Source: Arctopsyche grandis
Taxonomy: Eukaryota > Arthropoda > Insecta > Trichoptera > Hydropsychidae
Length of the DNA: 64,000 nt
Direction of reading: 5' to 3'
Assembly: GCF_051622035.1 (NCBI RefSeq)
Contig: NC_135365.1
Coordinates: forward strand, 29,140,001-29,204,000
The position numbers and the translations under genes are program-made. A model generated the notes under the pieces. The model did no database searches, was not told the DNA's origin, and saw nothing but the letters and a program-made list of their open reading frames with translations. Position 1 is the stretch's first letter. Every line of letters starts with the position of its first letter. Shown piece after piece: positions 27,120 through 59,000 of this stretch.

Positions 27120-27415
27120 GGGCAGTTTCAGACTAGTGTTTTATACGCGCGTATAATCTCGTTTTTTGAAGTGCATGTAGGCGCGTATAGGCGCGTCGTT
27201 TTCCATACGCGCAACTCGTAAGAGCGTAGACGCGCTTATAAGCTCGTATTATCCATGTTGATACTAAATCATCACTACCGGTTCGAGCAAAAACGCCGGA
27301 ATAAGCCCGTGTACGCGAGTCCGGTTTTTTTAAGCCCGAAATGTAGCGCGCGTGTAAGCGCGTATGCCGAAACGACGGTATACGCGCAGAAAAATACGCT
27401 AGTCTGAAACCGCCC
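27120..27415. mobile_element. PIF/Harbinger-like MITE, 296 bp, TTA target duplication
   Basis: Left end GGGCAGTTTCAGACTAGTG and right end CTAGTCTGAAACCGCCC are inverted repeats, flanked by TTA on both sides (27117-27119, 27416-27418). The inside is rich in CGCGTAT/ATACGCG words, giving it a GC content well above its neighbours. It is nested in the hAT element at 25938-27768. Confidence 0.82.
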
Positions 27416-27776
27416 TTAGTGCTCGACGTATGTCCGATAAAAGCTTCTCTGTTTGTTTATATTACTCTCAAGATGGGCAAACATCGGTAAAAATTGCACA
27501 ATGCATTCAAAAACACACAATAAACAACATGGGATACATTTTTATCAGTAAATTGATCCGATTGTATTCCGTGCGTTGTAGAGTATTTATAGAGACGTAC
27601 CGCATAATATTGACAACAATTATTTATACGTAAGGGCCCTTCTATTATTATTACATTTCTCTGAGTGGAGCACTACAAATTTTCGTGCTCCGGTTCCGCT
27701 CCTGCTCCGCGCAAAAACGTTGCTTCACTGCTCCGCATTCCTGCTCCACGCTCCGCTCCAGATCTCTTATTTTTAT

Positions 27777-28531: not shown

Positions 28532-31500
28532 TCAACCAAAAAATGAATCTAAGAACTCCATCGTCGTTCTGTGGTTATCTTCGGCCGCTTTGACTGATTC
28601 TAACGTTTTTGTTCCTTGATTATCAATTTTGATTCGCCTAGCTTCATTCAGGCTGTCATAATTAATGAAAATTGTATTGTTTTGATCATCGCTTTTCTTA
28701 ACCAAACTGTCTTCGATCAGAGCCTCCCGACAAAGGATTAACTCGTAGCTGCCCTTATTATCTTTGCGAGCAGTGCGACCTTTAATTTGGGTTTCTTCTT
28801 TAACGTCTAAGGAAAAAAAAGTTTGTATGACGTGAACTCCACCATTTTTCTCCACAGTAGTGCTAGTTTTGTAGTCGACACCGCGACCCATGCCTCTCGT
28901 TGCCAAAGTTATGGTCTTCGAAATGGCAGCTTCTTCGATCAGCCGCTCCACTTCTGCAGCATCAGTGTTGTTCGTCAATACGTTCAGACGATCGAATTTA
29001 CTCCCGTGCTCGTTTTTGAATGCATTTATTTCAATGTCGGTTTCAAACAATATTAAAACCGACCGTTCTTTTCCAATGTGAAAATTTGCCCTAGACTGTA
29101 TTCTGTCTCGCCACGTTTGTTTTGAATCCAAGACGACAAAATCATCTCCCTTGTCGAATTTCAAATTGCAATCGCCAAAGAATGAAGGCATGCTGAATGT
29201 TTTCTTTATGTTGTACATTTCTCGAACAGTTTCTTTTTCAAAGTTATTCATCGATGTCAAAGTTCCACTGACGCCTAAAATGTACGAATACTTTTGAGGT
29301 AAATTCGCATAAGAAGTCATGCCACAAAATATGGTCAAATAACCATAATTATTATAACCGTTGGGATTGAATTCCGTTATCTTTAATCGGAAATAATTGA
29401 ATACATTGTAATAATCACAGATAGTATTTTCAGCGTATATACCGTCATTCCTTCTATAACAAACATTTCCGTTGTCATTCAATTTGTATGGGTTTATATA
29501 CCAATTTGTATCATTTCCTTTTGCAACCTTTGTCGCACAATCGATCATCTTATCGAGATGTTCACTAAAAAGTGATCGATTTGTATACATTTTCTTCTCA
29601 ATTACGTTACCGTCAGATTCCACTAAAAGTTCATATTCATCAGGTCTACATCGAAAATCTTCAAACGTTAAATAGTCCTCATTTGGTTTACACACTTCGT
29701 TTTTAATATATTCCTCGATCTTTTCTACTATAGTAATCTTTTTATAGTCATTTTCTTTCACCATCTTCCATATTGCACACTGCATATCGGCAATAGCTTT
29801 CATTTCAATGTTTATACACGAACCGTGTGTATTACCATAGAATTCAGATGAAAAGAAAACGTCCACTTCGTCAATCAATAAAATAGTATCGCCAATACTA
29901 TTTTGTCTATTCAAAGTCGACAGATTTTTGGTGCCGTGAAGAATTCTCTTTTCGACCAAGTTTCTCAAGTAGTATTTTGTGTTATTGACGAATGGAGCGA
30001 TCACTTCGTTGGCCATGTCGTCGAAGGTGCCATAAGTCACTCGAGTCTTAATTTTTAATTCGTCGAAAAATTGAGCGAAATCATTATCATCTCGCTTAGC
30101 GAGGTATTCACTGTAGCAAACAACACGCACTTTATTTCCCAAGATAGCCAACAACGACGAGAGCAATCCAAGGATTACAGACTTTCCTTGTCCAGTCAGA
30201 ACTTGTGCGAGACATTTTCCAGTAGTGGTGTCGATGTTACCGACGTTGAGCATCATCAAAATGCACAATATTTGAATGCAATGCGGCTTTAAATACTTTT
30301 GAGTGCACTCGATATCCTTCGACACTTGCACGGACCACAGAGCGGCCAAGTGAGCGAGGATTTGGAGCAGTGTTGATTTTTTGAACTCCAACGTCCACTG
30401 GTCGATTTTCAAATCAGTCTTGAAGCCGATTAAAAGATTGACGATATATTTTATTTTATCTTTTTGTTGCTTCGTTGAACATTCTCCCATGCATTTCTCG
30501 TACTCTTCCAAGTAGTTTTTGAAGCATGTTTTGATTTTTAAAGAGTCTTCGATCGATAACGAGTTTGAAGATAATTTTTGGAACAGTTTTAGGGCCTCGT
30601 CTATATCGATTTCATCTTGCTTTCTTATATACCAAAATGATTGTTTAATTATACCTAATCGTTTCTCAAAATCTTTATAGGAATCGCTTTTTTGTACAAC
30701 GTTGCTAAATGGCTTTGTACTTTCTTCATAGAATGAAGAAAATGAAACATAATCTGGTTGATCTTTAAAATAAAGAAAAGAACTTCTAATAGCTGAAAAC
30801 AACAATCCGGTAGCCAATAAATTTTCATTATCACTGAATTCGCTGCCGTTTTCCCATTGTTTCTTATTCAACAGTTCGATCGCATCTTGTATCAACTTTT
30901 CGATTATATCAATGATGTAATGAGGATAGTTCCCTGTTTTTACAAAGTCTTTTGGTTTTTTCACTTTATATGATGCCTTTTCTAAAGTCAATTTATTCTT
31001 CACAAGCTCAATGACATCGTCATTGACATTGGTTGCTTTATATGCCTTTTCTAAAGTCAATGTATTAGTCACAACCGCAGTAAAAAGTAGACCCAACATT
31101 GCCCCTGGATTTGATATGTTTTGAGCAATCAATTTATTCTTCACATGCTTGATGACATCGCCATTGACACTAGTTGATTTATTTATTTTCACAAACCAAT
31201 CAAACGCTATGTTGTCAAAGTCGTCTAAAAATTCGTTGTACGATCTAAAATACTGAACAAGTGAATGTGAATTTACAGTTTTATCGAGAGCCATCAATAT
31301 AACTTGAAGAAGCTTCGAGGAAATTGCTTTCATTCTTGATTTATGTGGCTCGTAATCAAGTTTGCTATCGATGCTGCCGATTTTCGTTTCTCTTCTGTTC
31401 CAATACTGATTGTATTCTTCTATCATATTTTTGAAATTTTCGAACGCTATAGTATCGTATTGTAAATCTCCAGTTGCGTTTTTAATATGCTCCATTTGCC

Positions 31501-33079
31501 TCATCAATATATCCTGGTCTACTTTCAAATTGTTGTTCTTTAAATAGGGATGCGTATTCCCCATAAAATTGATGATGTTGTGTGTGAACACACGGAATGC
31601 TTCGAACGTGTCGTCTTTCGACATTCCAACGAAATTCACAAAATCCAACAACAAAGGTTGAAATAATTCAAAATAGCTTTTATCATTTTCCCCGGACATA
31701 ACATTATCGACTATGCATAACCATATCTTTCGTTCTTCCTTCATATTCACCAAGTCGTTATTCTTTGAAAACACACTTTTCATATGATCCCATATTGGTT
31801 TCCTTTTGTTGAATTGTAAAAATTTAAAGGTGTATTCGTATTCCTTCTTCCTTGGTCTCGGATTGAAATGCGACATAAGTTGATAAATAAAGCTACTTTG
31901 CCTCTCAAGAGCTGTATGCAGAAAACACGGCGACTTCCAACATATAGGTTTTTTCGTTTGAATTGATTTCAAAACATCTTCTACGGCACAGTTTGTCTTT
32001 TCACTGATCGTCACGACGAGTTCGAACAAACTTTTGAAAAGGTAATAATAAATAGGTCTCGTCAACGGTGAAACTTCTTTAACAGAGCTGTTAAAAGTTT
32101 TTACACTTCGAATAAAAGAATGTTGACAGTTATTCAATATATTCACAAAACATTGTTCGTTCGTTACCGATATGATGTCTGAAAACAGTTTTAAATCAGC
32201 TTTCGAGACATAGAGGGACTGTTGGATAGATAAATCTCGGAGATCACGAATCATCGTATACGGACAATCTTTGAATAAAATCTGCTTGTGATGCCCCATG
32301 CCCTGAGAGACCATTTCTTTCAATTCCGCAGCTAAATTAAATGTGTGTATTTGAAAAGTGTTTTCAATTTTTGGTAATTTTTTGTTTCTTCCATGAAGCG
32401 ATTCTTCCGAGTGTAAAAACCTTCTTGCAACATCTCTAACATTTTTCGAAATGTGTTCATTGTCGGAGATACTTTGCAGAACCGAAATATTCTCTGATGA
32501 TTGTTTGGTCTCGAGATAAATTTGTAAGCAATCTTCAGCGCAGTTTACGTCATCGCCGATATTATTAGTGACATCTTTAATGCACTTCATGAAGATTTCG
32601 TAATTTTTATTTCGCTCGTCCAACAATCCATCTTTTATAATTTCAGTCACTTTAATTCCATCTATGAAAAAATCACGTAAAATAGTGACATCTTTGAAAA
32701 CATTCAGCATGCGAAACTTTTCCAAGTTGAAAATTTTCACCCTGGCGATAAAATTCTCCTCGTCCATTGTTAATAAATATCCCGGAGTTTGCTTTCGGAT
32801 ATAGAATGTGTTTTCGTTGAATTTAGGAATGCTGAATTGGCAAGAGAATATTTCAAGTAAACAGTTGTTCTTCCACATTCCCTTAATATAATGCTTCTTA
32901 TCTTCACTCACAAGCTTCATCGTTTGTGTTGCATCTCCATTTTCAATCTGACTGTCGCTTGCTTTATCGGTTTTAGTATTTTTATTTGTTCTTCCTTTAT
33001 CATTTTTCCATACGTTTTGCCTAAAGTGCTTCGGAGGACGAATCAGTTCAAGGTCGGATATGTAACCGTCACTTTCCAT
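28532..33079 (-). CDS. Large protein with C-terminal SecA-type DEAD motor ATPase, intact copy, 1515 aa
   Basis: Residues 950-1510 form a SecA-like motor: Walker A GQGKS (963-967), the SecA hallmark YLAKRD shortly after, Walker B DEVD (1070-1073), a GVSGTLTS motif, then helicase motif V ATRGMGRGVD (1393-1402) with HVIQTFFS, and motif VI GRTARKDNKGS (from 1434). In bacteria SecA drives preproteins through SecYEG; here the first 950 residues are unlike bacterial SecA, and no preprotein cross-linking or C-terminal zinc region is visible, so the role is unknown. One exon holds the whole coding region; a TTTGAATTTCAG acceptor 22 bases before the ATG suggests a 5'-UTR intron. Residues from about 660 to 720 contain a 47-residue stretch absent from the other copy, with a repeated DVI..VKNKL word. 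Codon and base usage match the host, so this is a nuclear gene, not contamination. Confidence 0.85.
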   Translation of the reverse strand: MESDGYISDLELIRPPKHFRQNVWKNDKGRTNKNTKTDKASDSQIENGDATQTMKLVSEDKKHYIKGMWKNNCLLEIFSCQFSIPKFNENTFYIRKQTPGYLLTMDEENFIARVKIFNLEKFRMLNVFKDVTILRDFFIDGIKVTEIIKDGLLDERNKNYEIFMKCIKDVTNNIGDDVNCAEDCLQIYLETKQSSENISVLQSISDNEHISKNVRDVARRFLHSEESLHGRNKKLPKIENTFQIHTFNLAAELKEMVSQGMGHHKQILFKDCPYTMIRDLRDLSIQQSLYVSKADLKLFSDIISVTNEQCFVNILNNCQHSFIRSVKTFNSSVKEVSPLTRPIYYYLFKSLFELVVTISEKTNCAVEDVLKSIQTKKPICWKSPCFLHTALERQSSFIYQLMSHFNPRPRKKEYEYTFKFLQFNKRKPIWDHMKSVFSKNNDLVNMKEERKIWLCIVDNVMSGENDKSYFELFQPLLLDFVNFVGMSKDDTFEAFRVFTHNIINFMGNTHPYLKNNNLKVDQDILMRQMEHIKNATGDLQYDTIAFENFKNMIEEYNQYWNRRETKIGSIDSKLDYEPHKSRMKAISSKLLQVILMALDKTVNSHSLVQYFRSYNEFLDDFDNIAFDWFVKINKSTSVNGDVIKHVKNKLIAQNISNPGAMLGLLFTAVVTNTLTLEKAYKATNVNDDVIELVKNKLTLEKASYKVKKPKDFVKTGNYPHYIIDIIEKLIQDAIELLNKKQWENGSEFSDNENLLATGLLFSAIRSSFLYFKDQPDYVSFSSFYEESTKPFSNVVQKSDSYKDFEKRLGIIKQSFWYIRKQDEIDIDEALKLFQKLSSNSLSIEDSLKIKTCFKNYLEEYEKCMGECSTKQQKDKIKYIVNLLIGFKTDLKIDQWTLEFKKSTLLQILAHLAALWSVQVSKDIECTQKYLKPHCIQILCILMMLNVGNIDTTTGKCLAQVLTGQGKSVILGLLSSLLAILGNKVRVVCYSEYLAKRDDNDFAQFFDELKIKTRVTYGTFDDMANEVIAPFVNNTKYYLRNLVEKRILHGTKNLSTLNRQNSIGDTILLIDEVDVFFSSEFYGNTHGSCINIEMKAIADMQCAIWKMVKENDYKKITIVEKIEEYIKNEVCKPNEDYLTFEDFRCRPDEYELLVESDGNVIEKKMYTNRSLFSEHLDKMIDCATKVAKGNDTNWYINPYKLNDNGNVCYRRNDGIYAENTICDYYNVFNYFRLKITEFNPNGYNNYGYLTIFCGMTSYANLPQKYSYILGVSGTLTSMNNFEKETVREMYNIKKTFSMPSFFGDCNLKFDKGDDFVVLDSKQTWRDRIQSRANFHIGKERSVLILFETDIEINAFKNEHGSKFDRLNVLTNNTDAAEVERLIEEAAISKTITLATRGMGRGVDYKTSTTVEKNGGVHVIQTFFSLDVKEETQIKGRTARKDNKGSYELILCREALIEDSLVKKSDDQNNTIFINYDSLNEARRIKIDNQGTKTLESVKAAEDNHRTTMEFLDSFFG

Positions 33080-39149: not shown

Positions 39150-39554
39150 TGTCCGAGCCAACAAACCCACATGGCCGTGTTTTGGGCTCTTACGGGCGCG
39201 CACTCATTTTTACGAGGCGCGCTCATCTGTCAAACGAGACGCCCGCCATCCGCCGGCCGAGACGGTACTGGCGTAGCTGGTCTACCTTGCCTGACCAGCT
39301 GCAGCCAGCGTACTCATCCACAGCCCCCGCCATAGAGGGGCACAGGCGAGAGGCGCCGGCAAACTCCCCGGCTCGCCATTCTATGCGTCAATAAACGAGG
39401 ATAACCCGAGCTGACTTGTCTAATTCCCCACCCCGCCCTGTTCCAGCACGTGCTCCAGAGCGAGCTGAACACACATAGAGACGACGACACACACACACAG
39501 CCACTGGTCACCCAGCATACACACACACATTACAGCTCCTGAAGCTATCGTTCA
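39150..39554 (+). repeat. 5' LTR of the BEL/Pao-like element
   Basis: TGTCCGAGCC ... ATCGTTCA, 405 bp, with TCAATAAACG as poly(A) signal. It matches the 3' LTR closely but lacks two short tandem duplications found there. Confidence 0.85.
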
Positions 39555-39819
39555 TGGTCCTTCGAGTCGGGATGATCTACAGCGCTGGACTCTGTCGTCG
39601 GCATACCAGGTTGGTCGTCAGCCATTTTGTCTCTCCCGTTATTCCTTTGTGTTGGCTGTCCGCCATCTTGTAATCCCGCTTCCCTTTTGTTTAACGGCGT
39701 GGGTTTTTCCCCCCCCCCCCTTTTTGTTTAACGGCGTGGGTTTTTCCCCCCCTTTTGTTTCACGGCGCGGGTTTCCCCCCCCCGTGATATCATTTCACCC
39801 CTCACAGTTTCTCGAAGTC

Positions 39820-42229
39820 ATGACGACTCAATTGCGACGTCGTCGTGGCGCCCGTCGGGGAAGGCTGACGAAGCTCACGAATCTGGTCGACCAATTACCG
39901 CCGAGCGTGACCCGACTCGAATATAAGCTCGAGGAGGCGCGCCAGCTGCGTCTCGATTTCTTGGACACGCAGTCCGAGTTAGAAGCGTTAGAGCTCAAAG
40001 AGGCGGAGGAGTCCGCGCTGACATGGGACGAATTTGAGGACGCCTATTTGGCATATACAGATGCAGTGCTGGACAAACTAGATGCCGCAAAGAGCATCAC
40101 CTTGTCGGGAGGAACCTCCCCCCCCAAGCGACCTTTTCCCGGTCGATCAAACCGTCCGTCGCACTGTTGACCAACTCGCTACTCCCCCAGTGGACCAACC
40201 CATTCGTCTCCCGGCACTAGAACTGCCAACATTCGATGGGAAGCTCGAAGATTGGCCCCAGTTCTCCCAACGCTTCCAAGCCGCAATAGACGGCAGTAAA
40301 GTGGATTCAGTCCGCTTCCAATATCTTACTGCCAGTCTTACCGGTGAGGCCCGCAACATTCTCCGCGGCCTCGACTGTGCGGAAGGGGCCTTCACCACCG
40401 CTTGGTCCATTCTCGAGGACCGGTACAATAACAAGAGGTTGTTGGTCCAGAGACACGTCCAGGCATTGCTCAACGCTGAGCCTGTGGGCCATGACGTCGG
40501 TCAAGGGTTGCGGCGGCTGTTGGATGACATCACCATGCATACCCGCACCCTCGGGTCCATGGGCGTCCCCGTCGTCACATGGGACGACATCCTCGTATCT
40601 TCCTTGTCGTCCAAGCTGGACCGGTACACTGCCCGGCAATGGGACAAGCAATCGGTCAAGTACGAGGACTGGACATTCGACAAATTTCTCACGTTCCTCC
40701 GGTTTCAGTGCCAAGTGCAGATGAACGGCGAGGCCTTCGAGAGGATGCACCAGCCGCGTCCGTGCATACAGGCGGTTACCGGGACTTCCGCTCATCACGA
40801 GAGAGTCAAGGCAGTTTCCTGCCCTAAGTGTCGGGGTGAACATGTGCTCCACTCATGCTCCTCGTTCCGGGACCTGGCCCCACCAGAGCGAATCAGCCTG
40901 GTCCGAAGGGCAAACCTCTGCAGGAACTGCCTGCGTCCTGGCCACCAGACGACAGCTTGCAAGAGCCAAACTCGTTGCTCCCACTGTCGCAACCTACACC
41001 ACACACTTTTGCACGCCGAGTTTACTCGGACTCCAAAACACTTCAACGCTGCTCCTGTCCCAAGGGCTGCAAGCGTCGCTAACGAAGCGCCACACGCGCC
41101 TAGCCTTCATTCCCTGCATTCAACCGTCAGGGCAGCAACAACCCCTCGCACCATTCTGTTATCCACAGTGGTGTTGTCTGCCCGTGGAGGCGATGGGCGT
41201 TGGCATAAGTGTCGAGCACTGCTCGACAGTGGGTCAGAGATGAACATCATCTCCAATGACCTGCGTCAGCGGTTGAACATCCAACCGCATGCATTGAATG
41301 CAAGCATGGTCGGGGTAGGCTGTAAGGAAACGCCAATCTCCCAGGGCGTAGTCTTGCACGTTGCTCCTCGGGGGTCGAGGAGCCATGCCAAAATAAAGGA
41401 GATGGAGTTTTTAGTGATCCCTAAGATCACGAACAATGTTCCATCCAGAGACCTGTCGGAATTACGGCTGGGGTTGCCCCAGCGTATTTACCTGGCTGAC
41501 CCCACATTTGATTCGCCGGGGGCAGTCGACATGGTCCTCGGATGCTTGGCATTCCATCAGTCCCTTAAAGACGGTAGGAGGAATATTTCCATTCCGCCCT
41601 CACTCGCCAGCGAACGGGGCTCTACCATTCACCTGTTGAACACTTCGTTCGGCTGGGTTGTTAGTGGGGAACTGGGCTCAGTCCCAACAACCAACCGCTC
41701 CGGGAACTGCCATCAAAAAGCTTCTCGTGATCCGTCAGCGGACCGAAAAGTTCCGTTGCCAAAGCCTAGGGAACCCGCTTCTAAAAGAAGCCGCGGTAAA
41801 CCCGCACCCGTTGTTCCTCATCTCATCCGACCTTCCCAACCCAACTCCAAAAACTCCTGGTCAATTCCTAGCTGGCGAACCACTGGTTGCTCAACAGCGG
41901 GAGGATCTGCTCAATCAGCCCGCAGCACGGGCGCTACTGCACCAGCATCTGCAGCAGCGGGCAGAGATGGTCACTGGAGGAGTGCGGCACACTCCTTCAA
42001 CAGCAACACCAGGAAGGCAGCCCAACGAGTAGCTCGACTACCGACCGAGCGGCATGCAGAACATGGGGCGAGTCACGTTGGTGCTTCCTGGGCACGACGG
42101 CGTCGCACGAATTATCACCCTGTGCACTCAGAGGGGCATCACCGACAGGGCAGCTGGCGAGACGCTCGTTGGCCCCCTGACCAGCCGACTAGGCCTGGGT
42201 GCACTCACTGTTCTCCCGCCCCCATATAA
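39820..42229 (+). pseudogene. gag-protease region of the BEL/Pao-like element, frameshifted and deleted
   Basis: The gag frame starts at 39820 (MTTQLRRRRGARRG) and runs through a coiled region. At a C-run near 40119-40126 the frame shifts. It then continues from LPTFDGKLEDWPQF (DUF1759-like), through two zinc knuckles (CPKCRGEHVLHSC, CRNCLRPGHQTTAC), to an aspartic protease core ALLDSGSEMNIIS. After about 41700 the frame loses the expected order. Near 42060-42120 another frame has GRVTLVLPGHDGVARI, which resembles the very end of BEL/Pao pol. The polymerase and integrase in between are gone. It cannot move by itself. Confidence 0.8.
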
Positions 42230-42566
42230 TTTTGTCTTTTGTGTTTTTTCTTGTTCTGTGTGAAACTTATAACAAAAATGTTTGTGCCAATGTAGTAGTG
42301 GTTTGCTTGTGGTGCGCTAATTGACGCTGTATCCATTAAGTTTGTTTTGTTTTCTTTTGGTTGCTAATGACACTTTACCCTTGTAGTAGTTGGTTTGGTT
42401 TTTTTGTCGATGTGCTATAATGCTTTTTTTTTGCACTTTTAACCATGGGGGCTGGCTTTAGTTCCTAAAGAAGATGTTTGTTACCACTGCTCTGTTTGTT
42501 TGTTGTCTGCTTTGTTATTATGTTAACTTTCTTGAAATATTGTGAATATTCCAACCCCGGGGAGTA

Positions 42567-42999
42567 TGTCCGAGCCAACAAACCCACATGGCCGTGTTTT
42601 GGGCTCTTACGGGCGCGCACTCATTTTTACGAGGCGCGCTCATCTGTCAAACCAGACGCCCGCCATCCGCCGGACGAGACGCCCGCCATCCGCCGGCCGA
42701 GACGGTACTGGCGTAGCTGGTCTACCTTGCCTGACCAGTGACCAGCTGCAGCCAGCGTACTCATCCACAGCCCCCGCCATAGAGGGGCACAGGCGAGAGG
42801 CGCCGGCAAACTCCCCGGCTCGCCATTCTATTCGTCAATAAACGAGGATAACCCGAGCTGACTTGTCTAATTCCCCACCCCGCCCTGTTCCAGCACGTGC
42901 TCCAGAGCGAGCTGAACACACAGAGACGACGACACACACACACAGCCACTGGTCACCCAGCATACACACACACATTACAGCTCCTGAAGCTATCGTTCA
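42567..42999 (+). repeat. 3' LTR of the BEL/Pao-like element
   Basis: 433 bp. Differs from the 5' LTR by a 20-odd-bp tandem repeat of GACGCCCGCCATCCGCCGG, a short duplication at CTGACCAGTGACCAG and a few substitutions. It ends ATCGTTCA. Confidence 0.85.
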
Positions 43000-43386: not shown

Positions 43387-46300
43387 ATGGACAGCGAAGG
43401 TTATGTGTCCGATCTCGAGTCGATTAGTCCTCCGAAACGCTTCATACGAAATGTATGGACAAATGATAATAGTAGAACAAACAAAACGAGCAAAAATGAT
43501 ACAAGCAATCGTCAAACTGAAACATTGGAAACGAGGAAGCTTTCAAGCGAAGATGGGAAGCATTACATTAAGGGAAAGTTGAAAAACAATGAATTGATCG
43601 AAATATTTTCCGGCCAATTCAGTATTGCTGGATTCAACGAAAACACATTCTATATCCGAAAACAAACTCCGGGATATTTATTAACAATGGACGAGGAGAA
43701 TTTTATCGCCAGGGTGAAAATTTTCAACTTGGAAAAGTTTCGCATGCTGAATGTTTTCAAAGATGTCACTATCTTACGTGAATTTTTCATAAATGGAATT
43801 AAAGTGACTGAAATTATAAAAGATGGATTGTTGGACGAGCGAAATAAAAATTACGAAATCTTCATGAAGTGCATTAAAGATGTCACTAATAATATCGGCG
43901 ATGACGTTAACTGCGCTGAAGATTGCTTACAAATTTATCTCGAGACCAAACAATCATCAGAGAATACTTCGGTTCTGCAAAGTATCTCCGACAATGAACA
44001 CATTTCGAAAAATGTTAGAGATGTTGCAAGAAGGTTTTTACACTCGGAAGAATCGCTTCATGGAAGAAACAAAAAATTACCAAAAATTGAAAACACTTTT
44101 CAAATACACACATTTAATTTAGCTGCGGAATTGAAAGAAATGGTCTCTCAGGGCATGGGGCATCACAAGCAGATTTTATTCAAAGATTGTCCGTATACGA
44201 TGATTCGTGATCTCCAAGATTTATCTATCCAACAGTCCCTCTATGTCTCGAAAGCTGATTTAAAACTGTTTTCAGACATCATATCGGTAACGAACGAACA
44301 ATGTTTTGTGAATATATTGAATAACTGTCAACATTCTTTTATTCGAAGTGTAAAAGCTGTTACTTTTAACAGCTCTGTTAAAGAAGTTTCACCGTTGACG
44401 AGACCTATTTATTATTACCTTTTCAAAAGTTTGTTCGAACTCGTCGTGACGATCAGTGAAAAGACAAACTGTGCCGTAGAAGATGTTTTGAAATCAATTC
44501 AAACGAACAAATCTATATGTTGGAAGTCGCCGTGTTTTCTGCATACAGCTCTTGAGAGGCAAAGTAGCTTTATTTATCAACATATGTCGCATTTCAATCC
44601 GGGACCAAGGAAGAAGGAATACGAATACACCTTTAAATTTTTACAATTCAACAAAAGGAAAACAATATGGGATCATATGAAAAGTGTGTTTTCAAAGAAT
44701 AACGACTCGGTGAATATGAAGGAAGAACGAAAGATATGGTTATGCATAGTCGATAATGTTATGTCCGGGGAAAATGATGAAAGTTATTTTGAAATATTTC
44801 TACCTCTGTTGGTGGATTTTGTGAATTTCGTTGGAATGTCGAAAGACGACACGTTCGAAGCATTCCGTGTGTTCACACACAACATCATCAATTTTATGGG
44901 GAATACGCATCCCTATTTAAAGAACAACAATTTGAAAGTAGACCAGGATATATTGATGAGGCAAATGGAGCATATTAAAAACGCAACTGGAGATTTACAA
45001 TACGATAGGAAAGCGTTCGAAAGTTTCAGAAATATGATAGAAGAATACAATCAGTACTGGAGTAGGAGAGAAACTAAAATCGGCAGCATTGATAGCAAAT
45101 TTGATTACGAACCACATAAATCAAGAATGAAAGCAATTTCCTCGAAGCTTCTTCAAGTTATAATGATGGCTCTCGATAAAACTGTAAATTCACATTCACT
45201 TGTTCAGTATTTTAGATCGTACAACGAATTTTTAGACGACTTTGACAACATAGCGTTTGATTGGTTTGTGAAAATAAATAAATCAACTAGTGTCAATGGC
45301 GATGTCATCGAGCTTGTGAAGAATAAATTGACTGCTGAAAATACATCATATAAAGTGAAAAAACCAAAAGACTTTGTAAAAACAGGGAACTATCCTCATT
45401 ACATCATTGATATAATCGAAAAGTTGATACAAGATGCGATCGAACTGTTGAATAAAAAACAATGGGAAAACGGCAGCGAATTCAGTGACAATGAAAAATT
45501 ATTGGCTACCGGATTGTTGTTTTCAGCTATTAGAAGTTCTTTTCTTTATTTTAAAGATCAACCAGATTATGTTTCATTTTCTTCATTTTATGAAGAAAGT
45601 ACAAAGCCATTTAGTAACGTTGTACAAAAAAGCGATTCCTATAAAGATTTTGAGAAACGATTAGGTATAATTAAACAATCATTTTGGTATATAAGAAAGC
45701 AAGATGAAATCGATATAGACGAGGCCCTAAAACTGTTCCAAAAATTATCTTCAAACTCGTTATCGATCGAAGACTCTTTAAAAATCAAAACATGCTTCAA
45801 AAACTACTTGGAAGAGTACGAGAAATGCATGGGAGAATGTTCAACGAAGCAACAAAAAGATAAAATAAAATATATCGTCAATCTTTTAATCGGCTTCAAG
45901 ACTGATTTGAAAATCGACCAGTGGACGTTGGAGTTCAAAAAATCAACACTGCTCCAAATCCTCGCTCACTTGGCCGCTCTGTGGTCCGTGCAAGTGTCGA
46001 AGGATATCGAGTGCACTCAAAAGTATTTAAAGCCGCATTGCATTCAAATATTGTGCATTTTGATGATGCTCAACGTCGGTAACATCGACACCACTACTGG
46101 AAAATGTCTCGCACACGTTCTGACTGGACAAGGAAAGTCTGTAATCCTTGGATTGCTCTCGTCGTTGTTGGCTGTCTTGGGAAATAAAGTGCGTGTTGTT
46201 TGCTACAGTGAATACCTCGCCAAGCGAGATGATAATGATTTCGCTCAATTTTTCGACGAATTAAAAATTAGGACTCGAGTGACTTACGGCACCTTCAGAG

Positions 46301-47806
46301 ACATGGCCAACGAAGTGATCGCTCCATTCGTCAATAACACAAAATACTACTTGAGAAACTTGGTCGAAAAGAGAATTCTTCTCGGCACCAAAAATCTGCC
46401 GACTTTGAATAGACAAAATAGTATTGGCGATACTATTTTATTGATTGACGAAGTGGACGTTTTCTTTTCATCTGAATTCTATGGTAATACACACGGTTCG
46501 ATTAATAGAATTGAAATGAAAGCTATTGCCGATATGCAGTGTGCAATATGGAAGATGGTGAAAGAAAATGACTATAAAAAGATTACTATAGTAGAAAAGA
46601 TCGAGGAATATATTAAAAACGAAGTGTGTAAACCAAATGAGGACTATTTAACGTTTGAAGATTTTCGATGTAGACCTGATGAATATGAACTTTTAGTGAA
46701 ATCTGACGGTAACGTAATTGAGAAGAAAATGTATACAAATCGATCACTTTTTAGTGAACATCTCGATAAGATGATCGATTGTGCGACAAAGGTTGCAAAA
46801 GGAAATGATACAAATTGGTATATAAACCAATACAAATTGAATGACAACGGAAATGTTTGTTATAGAAGGAATGACGGTATATACGCTGAAAATACTATCT
46901 GTGATTATTACAATGTATTCAATTATTTCCGATTAAAGATAACGGAATTCAATCCCAACGGTTATAATAATTATGGTTATTTGACCATATTTTGTGGCAT
47001 GACTTCTTATGCGAATTTACCTCAAAAGTATTCGTACATTTTAGGCGTCAGTGGAACTTTGACATCGATGAATAACTTTGAAAAAGAAACTGTTCGAGAA
47101 ATGTACAACATAAAGAAAACATTCAGCATGCCTTCATTCTTTGGCGATTGCAATTTGAAATTCGACAAGGGAGATGATTTTGTCGTCTTGGATTCAAAAC
47201 AAACGTGGCGAGACAGAATACAGTCTAGGGCAAATTTTCACATTGGAAAAGAACGGTCGGTTTTAATATTGTTTGAAACCGATTGAAATAAATGCATTCA
47301 AAAACGAGCACGGGAGTAAATTCGATCGTTTAAACGTATTGACGAACAACACTGGTGCTGCAGAAGTGGAGCGACTGATCGAAGAAGCTGCCATTTCGAA
47401 GACCATAACTTTGGCAACGAGAGGCATGGGTCGCGGTGTCGACTACAAAACTAGCACTACTGTGGAAAAAAATGGTGGAGTTCACGTCATACAAACATTT
47501 TTTTCCTTAGACATTAAAGAAGAAACCCAAATTAAAGGTCGCACTGCTCGCAAAGATAACAAGGGCAGCTACGAGATGATCCTTTGTCGGGAGGCTCTGA
47601 TTGAAGACAGCTTGGTTGAGAAAGACGATGATCAAAACAATACAATTTCCATTAATTATGACAGCCTGAATAAAGCTAGGCGAATCAAAATTGATAATCA
47701 AGGAACAAAAACGTTAGAATCAGTCAAAGCGGCCGAAAATGACCACAGGATAACAATGGAATTCTTAGATTCATTTTTCACCAAAGACCTGCAATCCGAT
47801 GAATAA
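43387..47806 (+). pseudogene. SecA-like motor protein, second copy, broken by a 2-nt deletion
   Basis: Inverted paralogue of 28532-33079. The first frame (43387-47286) gives 1299 residues with Walker A GQGKS, YLAKRD and the DEVD box; it stops at FETD-TGA. Compared with the intact copy, two bases are missing at about 47281 in the word encoding ETDIEI. The second frame to 47806 then supplies motif V (ATRGMGRGVD) and motif VI (GRTARKDNKGS), and ends FFTKDLQSDE rather than FFG. The remaining frame is otherwise open, so the break is recent, or an assembly error. It lacks the 47-residue insertion of the other copy and has two extra residues (SVKAVTF). If translated as is, the protein would lack the second motor lobe. 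Confidence 0.85.
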
Positions 47807-56000: not shown

Positions 56001-59000
56001 TCTAAAACATAGATACAGTAAAAAGAGGTGCATATTATATTAGATTTCCAACATTATAGAATTTGACATTTTTACCCAAAGTGGCGAGCTCGACATCTGT
56101 GGTGTTGGACATGAAGAAGTGACCGTAGAAATCGGTAGCTCGCACTCCAGTCGAGGTTCGCACTCTCATTACGGCGTCGTAAGCCGTCGGCCTCGACAAT
56201 ACTCGTGACAAGTCGTCGATAAACCTATCACCGTCTACATCAGCCTGGAAACAATAACAGCACCATTTGAACATCAGCCAGACATTTGAATAACAGAAAT
56301 TTAATATAGAAAAAAAAGATAAACACCTGGAAATATGTATATTTGTGGAGGCTGCCGCCAGTGAGACGCGACAATTGTCCGAGAGTTGCCACATCAGCGT
56401 ACGAACTGTTGAAAAGGAACATTTCAATTCCGCAGCCTGCACCGACGCATTCTTGAGCAACTTCGTTGTACGCCTTCGTTTGAGGATCTTACAAAAAAAA
56501 AATAGCACAAAATTGAATGACACCGTTTTAAAGTGATAATTCTGTTTCAACACGTCAGGCCAGTTCTATACGCTAAATCAGACTCAAAGCCTCGGTTGTA
56601 CTCGACATATACACAAGTCGCTTGACGACGTAAGATGCGACACTAGGGCTTCCAAGCCAGTTTAAGCCGAAAAACAGGCTTTTTGACCATTTTTCAAAAA
56701 ACCAAAAGCCGGCTTTTGGCTCAAATCAACTGGCTTTTTAAGGTTTTCTTTAATTAATGTTTTTTTTTCTTCAAAACTAACAATTATCAATTTCAAATTC
56801 CTATGAAAGATAAAAAAAAATGTGTATATCTAAACGATCTTGGGTAATAGGTGTAAATTTTTTTTTGAACAACAAAAAAAAGGTACAGCACTTGGCGGTT
56901 TCCAAGACGAAGACCAAGTCATAAACCAATAAAATGTTATTGAAGGAAATGGAAGCCCTTTAAATTTTGAGGCCACATACCTACTTTTTATTATGGTTTT
57001 AAAATGTTTGTGATGTGTCGTTTCTTTTCCGAAATTTGCAACGGTTTGACAAGCTTTTGGATTCTTAAGCTAAAACAGATGAGTAAAAATAGCTTATGGA
57101 AATATTTCAACATTGAGCGCATCTCAGCAGTGTTCTTAATATCTATTCACGATTTCACAATTGTAGTTTTTCTACGAGGTAACACACTGAAACCGGTGAA
57201 AGCCGGCCAACCGGCTTTTTCATTTGGGCGGTTTTTTGGAACCCCTAATGCGACACAGATACACCATACAAGGATTCGTCAATTGATCAGGATACGTAGT
57301 CAGCAGTCAGGTTCGAGTCTGAGCTTCCGTCTGTCTTCTAAGCTGACATCTTCACCTACATATTAAGGTCTAAAGACCCATATATACTTAGATAAATACT
57401 CACTCAATACACTTTTCTCTTTGTCGGTGCCGAGAAGTTTCCGATCGTCTCGATTGATGAGCTGTCCAGGAGCTTGCGCCGATGGCAGCGACGAGTGGAA
57501 AACGAGAAGCTTCCCGCAGCATTCGGACGCTTTGAGCGCTTCCAAGCCAGCCTGCATCATCAAACAACATAAATCGCCGCATTCAAACACACACACACAC
57601 ACCGAGAATATAAACAGACGATTCATACTTGTACGGCCGGAAGCAGAATGGTCTCCGTCTCTTTAGTCTCCTGGAACATTATCGGTATCTGCTGAGCGAG
57701 CGCGTCCAGCAAGTGATCGGCCTGACCGGGCTCGGCGAGCAGACCATGCGACAGCGGAACGAACACGTCTTGAATATCACCAACCACCATCATCTGCGGC
57801 TGTCCGAGATTTTTCTAAACATACCGACATATCTGATCTGAACGACGGATTCTCAATGTAATGTACGTGGATGCTTACATATGTATGAGGACGCTTACGT
57901 TGATATTGTAAAAGTGGATTGTTGAACTGTAGGTGATGAGGCCGACTCGAGGAGGGATCGGCAGGTTTGCTAGGAGCGAACGCAGCTGTCCGACCACTAA
58001 ATTTACTAATCCGGAGCGAATCGCATTATAAGAGACGTCCACGACAAAGATCAAGGCAGGCGGAGTCGGCAATACGTTATTCTGCAAACGACACAAAAAG
58101 CACGTACAGATAAAATGTTAAACTTAGAGAGGGAAAATGATCGCCGAAAATGAAATTACCCGACAGTATTCTTTCGTAGCGACAATTTCATAACATCCGA
58201 GAGACATTTCAGGAGTGCTTTGTCCATAATGTTGTCCGTTATTGAGGTATTGCGTGTATTCCATAGGGACTGAAACATGACAAAATGCGATGACTTGCAT
58301 GATCCAATTAGATCATATATCGTATGTTTTATTTTACGGGCTTCGAACTCCCGGAACGCGCAGTCAATAGCATCACGAACAGAGCTTTATAGAGAAATAC
58401 TTTCCATCATTTTGAAGTGATCATAGGATTACCCACCTTCGGTCGTGGCTTTACAGAAGGCACATTGGAAATGACGACCGGCATCGACAAATCTCATCGC
58501 TGGACACATGTAAGCTTTGCAACGGCTGCACCGCACCGGTCCAGTGCCTGGCATTCCGGTCAACACGGAAAAGTCCAAGAGCGGTGGCGGCCTCTCATCA
58601 GCAACAGTCTCCGCCATTGGAGATAACTGAAACGGCAACATCGAGCATAAACCGAGTGACGCAACCTGAAAACAACCATCTGATCCATATGGCGGCACTC
58701 ACCACAATGCAGAACGGTACGGCCGTTTGCTTCATCATGTCTGGCGTGGCGGGAACATTGTACATTGAGCTGCGGATGTAGCGAGGACCTGGAAAATACC
58801 ACATATAGATTTTTGAAACAAAGAAAACCAGCATAGAACGCGACGATCGGAAAGTGAGTGAGCGTACTTGCGTTCCCTTGATCCATGACGGTGAAGTCCG
58901 TGGTGACCAACGGTGGTACTCGGCCCTTGGCATTGGTCGCAAACATGCCCCCATTTGAATTCTGATCTTCGGTCATGACTTGGATCTGCAATGTGAAAGT

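Follow-up and report, generated by a model that had tools for sequence, protein, structure and literature searches.

Eukaryote-like secA genes have been reported in the Wolbachia strain wBol1-b, where wBol1_1091 (4488 nt) and wBol1_1092 (11,829 nt) were assigned to this type (Duplouy et al. 2013, PMC3639933). Full-length matches cited in that report were to insect proteins only, from mosquitoes for wBol1_1091 and from the ant Harpegnathos for wBol1_1092, with a near-full-length match in Daphnia, and a transfer from a eukaryote to Wolbachia was argued. wBol1_1092 was reported to be under purifying selection (PMC3639933). Two SecA homologues are also listed in the eukaryotic association module of phage WO (PMC5062602, 2016), and a eukaryotic-like secA module is mentioned for WOHa2 (PMC9203015). 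Here, we describe a relative, named P0001, found in a 64,000 nt stretch of a chromosome of the caddisfly Arctopsyche grandis (C11:29140001-29204000, here called the window). In a reading to which we give about even weight, P0001, which has a SecA-type motor behind an N-terminal region of approximately 880 residues, belongs as a nuclear gene of the host to the eukaryote-like secA family shared by animals and Wolbachia or phage WO, and works as a soluble protein-remodelling engine. The family itself has been published before; the missing domains, the link to toxins and the anatomy of the copies are new here. In the open-licence literature, covered mostly by listing, we found no paper that deals with the function of eukaryote-like secA genes or, in animals, with a link to toxins.

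P0001 is a complete single-exon gene at window positions 28532-33079 on the minus strand, with its ATG at 33079 and its stop codon at 28532-28534. When the 64 kb window was shuffled 50 times, no stop-free run was longer than 164 codons, against the 1515 aa of this intact, stop-free frame. It agrees with the published description of the short Wolbachia type, being approximately 1500 aa long with an N-terminal half without known domains, a C-terminal SecA domain and no introns in the frame. In the short Wolbachia type, compared here by that description, the SecA domain likewise lies in the later part, the N-terminal half is matched only in mosquitoes and there is little evidence of true introns; the collections searched here returned no record of wBol1_1091 or of the Culex or Aedes proteins. 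The pairs wBol1_1091/wBol1_1092 and wHa_3920/wHa_3930 resemble the host genes in falling into two size classes, 4488 and 11,829 nt against approximately 4.4-4.5 kb and 10.6-12.5 kb here. However, whereas Wolbachia and phage WO carry them as a pair, in A. grandis genes of both classes sit on chromosomes of the animal, where each class has several copies and the two are not adjacent.

The motor occupies the last ~640 residues (residues ~877-1515; 28535-30451, minus strand). The first-pass annotation, made from the sequence, had listed SecA motifs in SecA order in this part of the protein, and TGQGKS, YLAKRD, DEVD, RGVD and GRTAR were all confirmed. TGQGKS at residue 962 (Walker A; 30179-30196), YLAKRD at 992, DEVD at 1070 (29861-29872), GVSGTL at 1269, RGVD at 1399 and GRTAR at 1434 (28766-28780), which we take to be motifs I, Ia, II, III, V and VI, follow the order found in SecA. 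TGQGKS and DEVD are invariant in six aligned rows of the P0001 family, and motifs I, Ia, II, III and VI are present in all five intact full-length copies in the genome. The step from RGxD to GRxxR is 35 residues in the P0001 family, in three of three canonical SecAs and in all five large SecA-like bacterial proteins measured. A DEVD/DEAD pattern matched two of the three canonical SecAs. The YLAKRD pattern matched three of the five large proteins and none of the three canonical SecAs, and because of the latter YLAKRD does not appear, by this pattern test, to be a SecA hallmark. Pfam SecA_DEAD matched residues 930-1017 at 38.4 bits (cut-off 24.6) and solved SecA chains in the PDB matched with an E of 1.6e-8; Helicase_C and the SecA P-loop were both below the Pfam cut-off in P0001. 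In the six-row family alignment, SecA_DEAD was found in 6/6 rows and Helicase_C and the SecA P-loop in 5/6, the sixth row presumably being the 5' piece of a second window copy (see below), which is without that region. No strong membrane segment was found in the hydropathy profile of P0001, in which the sole 19-residue peak above 1.6 (1.68) lies in the motor beside Walker A; the other four intact copies have at most one peak, of up to 1.87, in the same place.

The N-terminal region (residues ~1-876, with an uncertain boundary at 820-890; 30452-33079, minus strand) has no SecA match, and no Pfam family was found at E<=5 for residues 1-650 or 351-819. The claim that the N-terminal part is unlike SecA was thus upheld. 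Its extent, given as the first 950 residues, was too generous, as local alignments of P0001 to the large SecA-like proteins begin at residues 823 to 891. A 141 nt in-frame insertion with partial internal repeats (30983-31123, minus strand) is missing from the five other aligned sequences.

SecA is not expected to be in use by animals. The parts of SecA that grip the preprotein and push it through SecYEG are the preprotein cross-linking domain PP_bind, the scaffold and the two-helix finger. P0001 has no match at E<=1 to PP_bind (PF01043) or to SecA_SW (PF07516), the wing/scaffold domain with the two-helix finger, and the 10 families listed for the six-row family alignment include neither of them; both were far above cut-off in the two canonical SecAs used as positive controls. 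Between the start of motif VI and the C-terminus there are 81 residues in P0001 vs 264 in a Jeotgalibacillus SecA, and the best NCBIfam SecA model gave P0001 57.1 bits vs a cut-off of 862. Hence, P0001 shares with canonical SecA and SecA2 the order of the motor motifs and the 35-residue step from motif V to motif VI, but differs from them in lacking PP_bind and the wing/scaffold, in its short end after motif VI and in its ~880 extra N-terminal residues. Because PP_bind and SecA_SW are absent, the NCBIfam score is far below cut-off and P0001 scores higher with the large SecA-like proteins described next, we conclude from these profile comparisons that P0001 is not a SecA protein and that its motor falls outside canonical SecA. 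Of the SecA affinity proposed in the first-pass annotation, the SecA_DEAD match survived, and PP_bind, SecA_SW and the NCBIfam SecA cut-off did not.

When P0001 was used to query plasmids by tblastn, 15 records were matched. Among the best 10 of these 15, the top matches were to Megaera and Legionella geestiana (both 4e-12) and Bandiella (3e-9), and the weaker ones include an Enterococcus SecA2. The matches are to parts of genes of 15.7 kb in Megaera, 8.8 kb in L. geestiana and 8.9 kb in Bandiella. A model of five bacterial SecA-like rows (Bandiella, two from Megaera, Legionella and the IMG/VR contig L046) gave P0001 141.7 bits, and a small model of three canonical SecAs gave 50.8 bits. Large, toxin-like proteins of intracellular bacteria are the nearest relatives found here for the motor. 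The P0001 motor scores higher with the large SecA-like proteins of the Megaera, Bandiella and L. geestiana plasmids and of contigs L046 and L047 than with canonical SecA, and no SecA_SW match was found in those of them that were scanned. They differ in that P0001 is shorter than the giants, has no BLAST match to them before residue 823 and is without a LysM match, a membrane segment or a toxin domain at its C-terminus.

The A. grandis genome also contains two giant, intronless, intact frames with SecA motors, which measure 3521 and 4161 aa when counted from their first ATG, at C11:28.28 Mb and C5:33.02 Mb, the nearer lying approximately 0.9 Mb from P0001 on C11. A tblastn query with the C5 giant's motor matched Megaera (6e-97), Bandiella (4e-69) and Legionella (5e-57), and annotated plasmid SecAs only at approximately 1e-21. 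The host giants align to the large bacterial proteins over 562-824 residues with 29-34% identity. Both giants (L009-L010 and L012-L013) have a hydrophobic stretch towards the C-terminus, and the C5 giant repeats a ~114-residue unit several times. Megaera plasmid CP113870.1 (L053) carries adjoining SecA-like genes of 15.7 kb and 4.8 kb (1589 aa), an arrangement that echoes the giant and short pair of Wolbachia.

The relative in L046 is a 3554-aa protein with SecA_DEAD in its middle, WHH (56.7 bits) and Colicin-DNase (41.0 bits) matches at its C-terminal end and a RickCE-like stretch near its N-terminus that is below cut-off (18.4 bits; cut-off 27). The gene directly after it matches SMI1/KNR4 (SUKH) at 82.9 bits. 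Polymorphic toxins followed by their immunity genes have this layout. SecA-like modules are reported to be held by Amoebophilus effectors (PMC3482391) and by giant actinobacterial toxins (PMC8195603). A further candidate for a link between SecA and toxins, PMC9111745, was rejected, as the passages covered mention only an ordinary SecA gene as a neighbour. No Pfam match to a C-terminal toxin domain was found in P0001 or in the six-row family alignment. A single open reading frame (ORF) of at least 100 aa lies just downstream of P0001, at 27133-27456; by eye it is unlike an immunity gene, though this was judged without a profile search and a gene split by introns would escape notice. The link of P0001 to symbionts would rest on the company that its motor keeps.

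Pattern scans of the genome contigs and the viral contigs for the family or for mixed motors returned no relatives, but the patterns were mostly N-terminal or very short and this is not evidence of absence. No match to a degenerate Walker A DNA pattern was found in the viral contigs. A scan with an alignment of two animal and two bacterial giants matched three contigs. Phage records gave only weak tblastn matches, two for P0001 and 24 for the motor of a giant. P0001 matched none of the PADLOC families of anti-phage defence systems, and the defence role suggested as one possibility in the first-pass annotation is unsupported, although conceivable.

Four more intact full-length copies are present, one each on C6 and C12 and two on C11 (here C11a and C11b). 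They are 1450-1463 aa from the first ATG and 52-55% identical to P0001. Broken or partial copies were found on C11 and C2, and all copy counts are from a genome protein search and are lower bounds. At C11:7.113 Mb (L031), a broken copy lies beside an intact one, and a 911-codon frame there runs, by eye, from the N-terminal region into a retroelement-like frame. A second copy in the window is inverted relative to P0001 and is broken by a 2 nt deletion at 47282 relative to copy 1 (P0001). Its 5' part up to the frameshift (43387-47281, plus strand) has 1299 codons, and its 3' part (47282-47806, plus strand) continues in the shifted frame and includes RGVD and GRTAR. Compared in 150 nt steps from approximately codon 100 to the stop codon, the window pair shares at least 95% identity in 26 of 28; the others are at 94%, and a step at the insertion has 9 aligned bases. 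Identity is 75-80% over the first 300 nt, 62% over the 150 nt before the ATG and 35-49% in the other flanks. As the coding body is near-identical while the first ~100 codons have diverged and the flanks are mostly at background, the pair fits an old inverted duplication that was probably homogenised by gene conversion. Between the two copies lies an element (39150-42999) that we take to be BEL/Pao-like, with DUF1759, an aspartyl protease match below cut-off and direct repeats at its ends that are mostly 98-99% identical.

Ratios of non-synonymous to synonymous change (dN/dS) were obtained by Nei-Gojobori (NG86) counting. Among older full-length pairs, dN/dS was 0.28 for C12/C11a, 0.34 for C6/C11b and 0.25 for C6/C12, and the two giants gave 0.27. 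There has been longer-term purifying selection between the older paralogues. The window pair gave 0.40 overall.

In the region from 30.6 to 34.4 Mb on chromosome 2 (C2), there are 14 copies without a SecA part (L019, L032, L033, L035, L037-L039 and L055-L061), of which three are broken and 11 are intact; counted from their first ATG, the intact frames are 512-516 aa long and encode eight distinct proteins. The intact copies match only residues ~54-524. One further intact SecA-less copy is on C162, and its protein is identical to that of one C2 copy. The last 24 residues are identical in 11 of the 12 intact SecA-less copies, with a close variant in the twelfth, L019, and broken motor remnants lie downstream of L019. 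Because of this shared end and these remnants, the cluster is likely to have arisen through one truncation that was followed by amplification. The identity of L032 with six other loci is 97.6-99.2% over 3.2-4.5 kb; with L019 it is 96.8% over 2.2 kb. A spanning tree of 11 copies, which is a simple count with no codon model, has 84 non-synonymous and nine synonymous changes (P = 0.009 vs equal rates), and 37 and six when L019 is left out (P = 0.25). The L019 edge differs at 47/1244 non-synonymous, 3/298 synonymous and 13/589 flank sites. Seven cluster copies compared with the intact C11b gave ratios of 0.95-1.07, as expected without constraint. Positive selection on the C2 copies was suggested by pairwise counts and weakened by the spanning tree without L019; the changes may reflect either relaxed constraint or selection for change.

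In phylogenetic trees, which carried long-branch warnings, the three canonical SecAs were split from the P0001 family and the large proteins with support of 100/100; in the first tree a Mesorhizobium row grouped with the canonical side of this branch, and the second left out Mesorhizobium, L048 and the partial second window copy. The large bacterial proteins formed one clade with support of only 90/83 and 90/88. A topology with the bacterial rows as one clade without the animal giants was not rejected (approximately unbiased test, p-AU 0.103), and one with the short and giant families of this genome as a single clade was weakly rejected (p-AU 0.041). The first-pass annotation had offered an old eukaryotic family and a bacterial transfer followed by fusion as alternatives, and with these values the phylogeny does not settle between them.

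The C11 contig that holds the window is 30.8 Mb long, in a genome of 475.7 Mb in 189 contigs. An exon of Sec24C/D lies in the same window (56038-56565, minus strand; PDB match E 1.3e-16), and of six other window ORFs scanned, three matched transposon or retroelement families above cut-off, one did so below cut-off and two had no match. Because of the size of the contig, the Sec24C/D exon and the surrounding transposon genes, we conclude that P0001 is a nuclear gene of the host chromosome, as the first-pass annotation had it, and not contamination. The frame is long and intronless, as might be seen with bacterial contamination or an assembly error, but against this source, together with the contig and the neighbouring genes, are the paralogues on C2, C6, C11 and C12; contamination is refuted for practical purposes and we give it next to no weight.

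Two further observations concern mitochondrial sequence. A near-complete COX1 lies within C1:36084329-36085669, as either a recent nuclear insertion or an assembly join. Its 11 TGA codons are sense codons under the invertebrate mitochondrial code, with which the frame stays open, and this marks the organism as an invertebrate. Among plasmid records, NZ_CP087955.1, deposited as a 16.6 kb 'Wolbachia plasmid' of the moth Corcyra, matched 99% of the COX1 query with 70% identity, and may be the mitochondrial genome of the Corcyra host.

Several results weigh against reading P0001 as a maintained host remodelling protein whose motor is akin to those of symbionts. The short Wolbachia type, wBol1_1091, is reported to evolve neutrally in Wolbachia (PMC3639933). 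In the window pair, the motor has a dN/dS of 1.03 (3.7 synonymous and 15.3 non-synonymous differences), and because this rests on few changes at such a ratio no recent constraint is demonstrable on the window motor. The dN/dS of 0.125 between copy 1 and C11a comes from saturated synonymous sites. As one window copy is frameshifted and other copies are broken, P0001 is possibly a gene on its way out. Rhizobium johnstonii (4e-9) is in the same plasmid listing, approximately equal to Bandiella. With the five-row model, canonical SecAs score 167-208 bits vs 127-145 for complete rows of the P0001 family, and because of this the large bacterial proteins appear to stand between SecA and the P0001 family and to be closer to SecA. 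The P0001 family is on a very long branch (2.8-3.3 changes per column). An AlphaFold model of residues 1-650, made from an alignment of the two near-identical window rows, was unusable (mean predicted local distance difference test score 32.5), with secondary structure that was mostly helix.

These points bear on the alternatives to different degrees. A true SecA translocase of bacterial origin, still driving protein across a membrane, would account for the SecA_DEAD match, the SecA-type motif order and the step from motif V to motif VI. With PP_bind and SecA_SW absent, a best NCBIfam score of 57.1 bits vs 862 and, to our knowledge, no SecYEG partner for SecA to be expected in the animal secretory pathway, we consider this very unlikely. 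More credible, though still improbable, is a self-spreading or drifting multi-copy gene without a host role, governed by transfer, segmental duplication and decay. Such a gene would explain the frameshifted window copy, the broken copy at C11:7.113 Mb, the C2 pseudogene pieces and the three broken cluster copies, the 97.6-99.2% identity of C2 copies over 3.2-4.5 kb where measured, the unconstrained motor of the window pair and the reported neutrality of the short type in Wolbachia (PMC3639933). It does not sit well with five intact frames of 1450-1515 aa that have kept their motifs, or with dN/dS of 0.25-0.34 in three older pairs.

The chromosome 2 cluster allows another explanation, a killer and suppressor or decoy pair, in which full-length motor proteins would act on cells or symbionts and the fast-evolving N-terminal copies would bind the same partners and block them. 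The 11 intact N-terminal-only copies (eight proteins) with a common truncated end, spread over 30.6-34.4 Mb, would be in keeping with this, as would the 84 vs nine changes on the spanning tree (P = 0.009) and the presence of a motor relative in a toxin with an immunity gene. However, the excess drops to 37 vs six (P = 0.25) without L019, and the seven cluster copies are at 0.95-1.07 against C11b; we find the idea doubtful. Its more elaborate form, in which the SecA-type motor of a symbiont toxin was made into a conflict system of the animal's own, with full-length effectors and amplified SecA-less C2 decoys or antidotes, seems a little more doubtful still.

Because P0001 lacks both the translocation parts and a clear membrane segment, a soluble remodelling engine is the most likely of these readings. 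The motor, with its motifs intact in 5/5 full-length copies, would hydrolyse ATP, and without the scaffold and two-helix finger it would not push protein through SecYEG. P0001 would instead be a soluble, ATP-driven engine for remodelling or unfolding proteins, and its N-terminal region may select the client. The motor was probably drawn from a mobile pool of effector and toxin genes exchanged by hosts and intracellular bacteria and then kept by the host, perhaps for use in dealings with symbionts or in reproduction. In Daphnia similoides, a SecA DEAD-like transcript, which may be of either type and may or may not be the animal's own, stands in row 13 of a table of the 30 transcripts with the strongest up-regulation in sexual vs parthenogenetic females (PMC5037449, Table 1), a hint at the expression of genes of this kind and at a role in reproduction.

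A SecA-type motor without translocation parts, present in several intact animal copies and nearest in score to the motors of large bacterial proteins, one of which bears a toxin, is a testable lead on a family noted in 2013. The N-terminal region and the SecA-less copies on chromosome 2 are the places to look for its function. Should the motor prove to be a module that delivers symbiont toxins, the family would be relevant to the action of Wolbachia and its relatives on the cells of their hosts.

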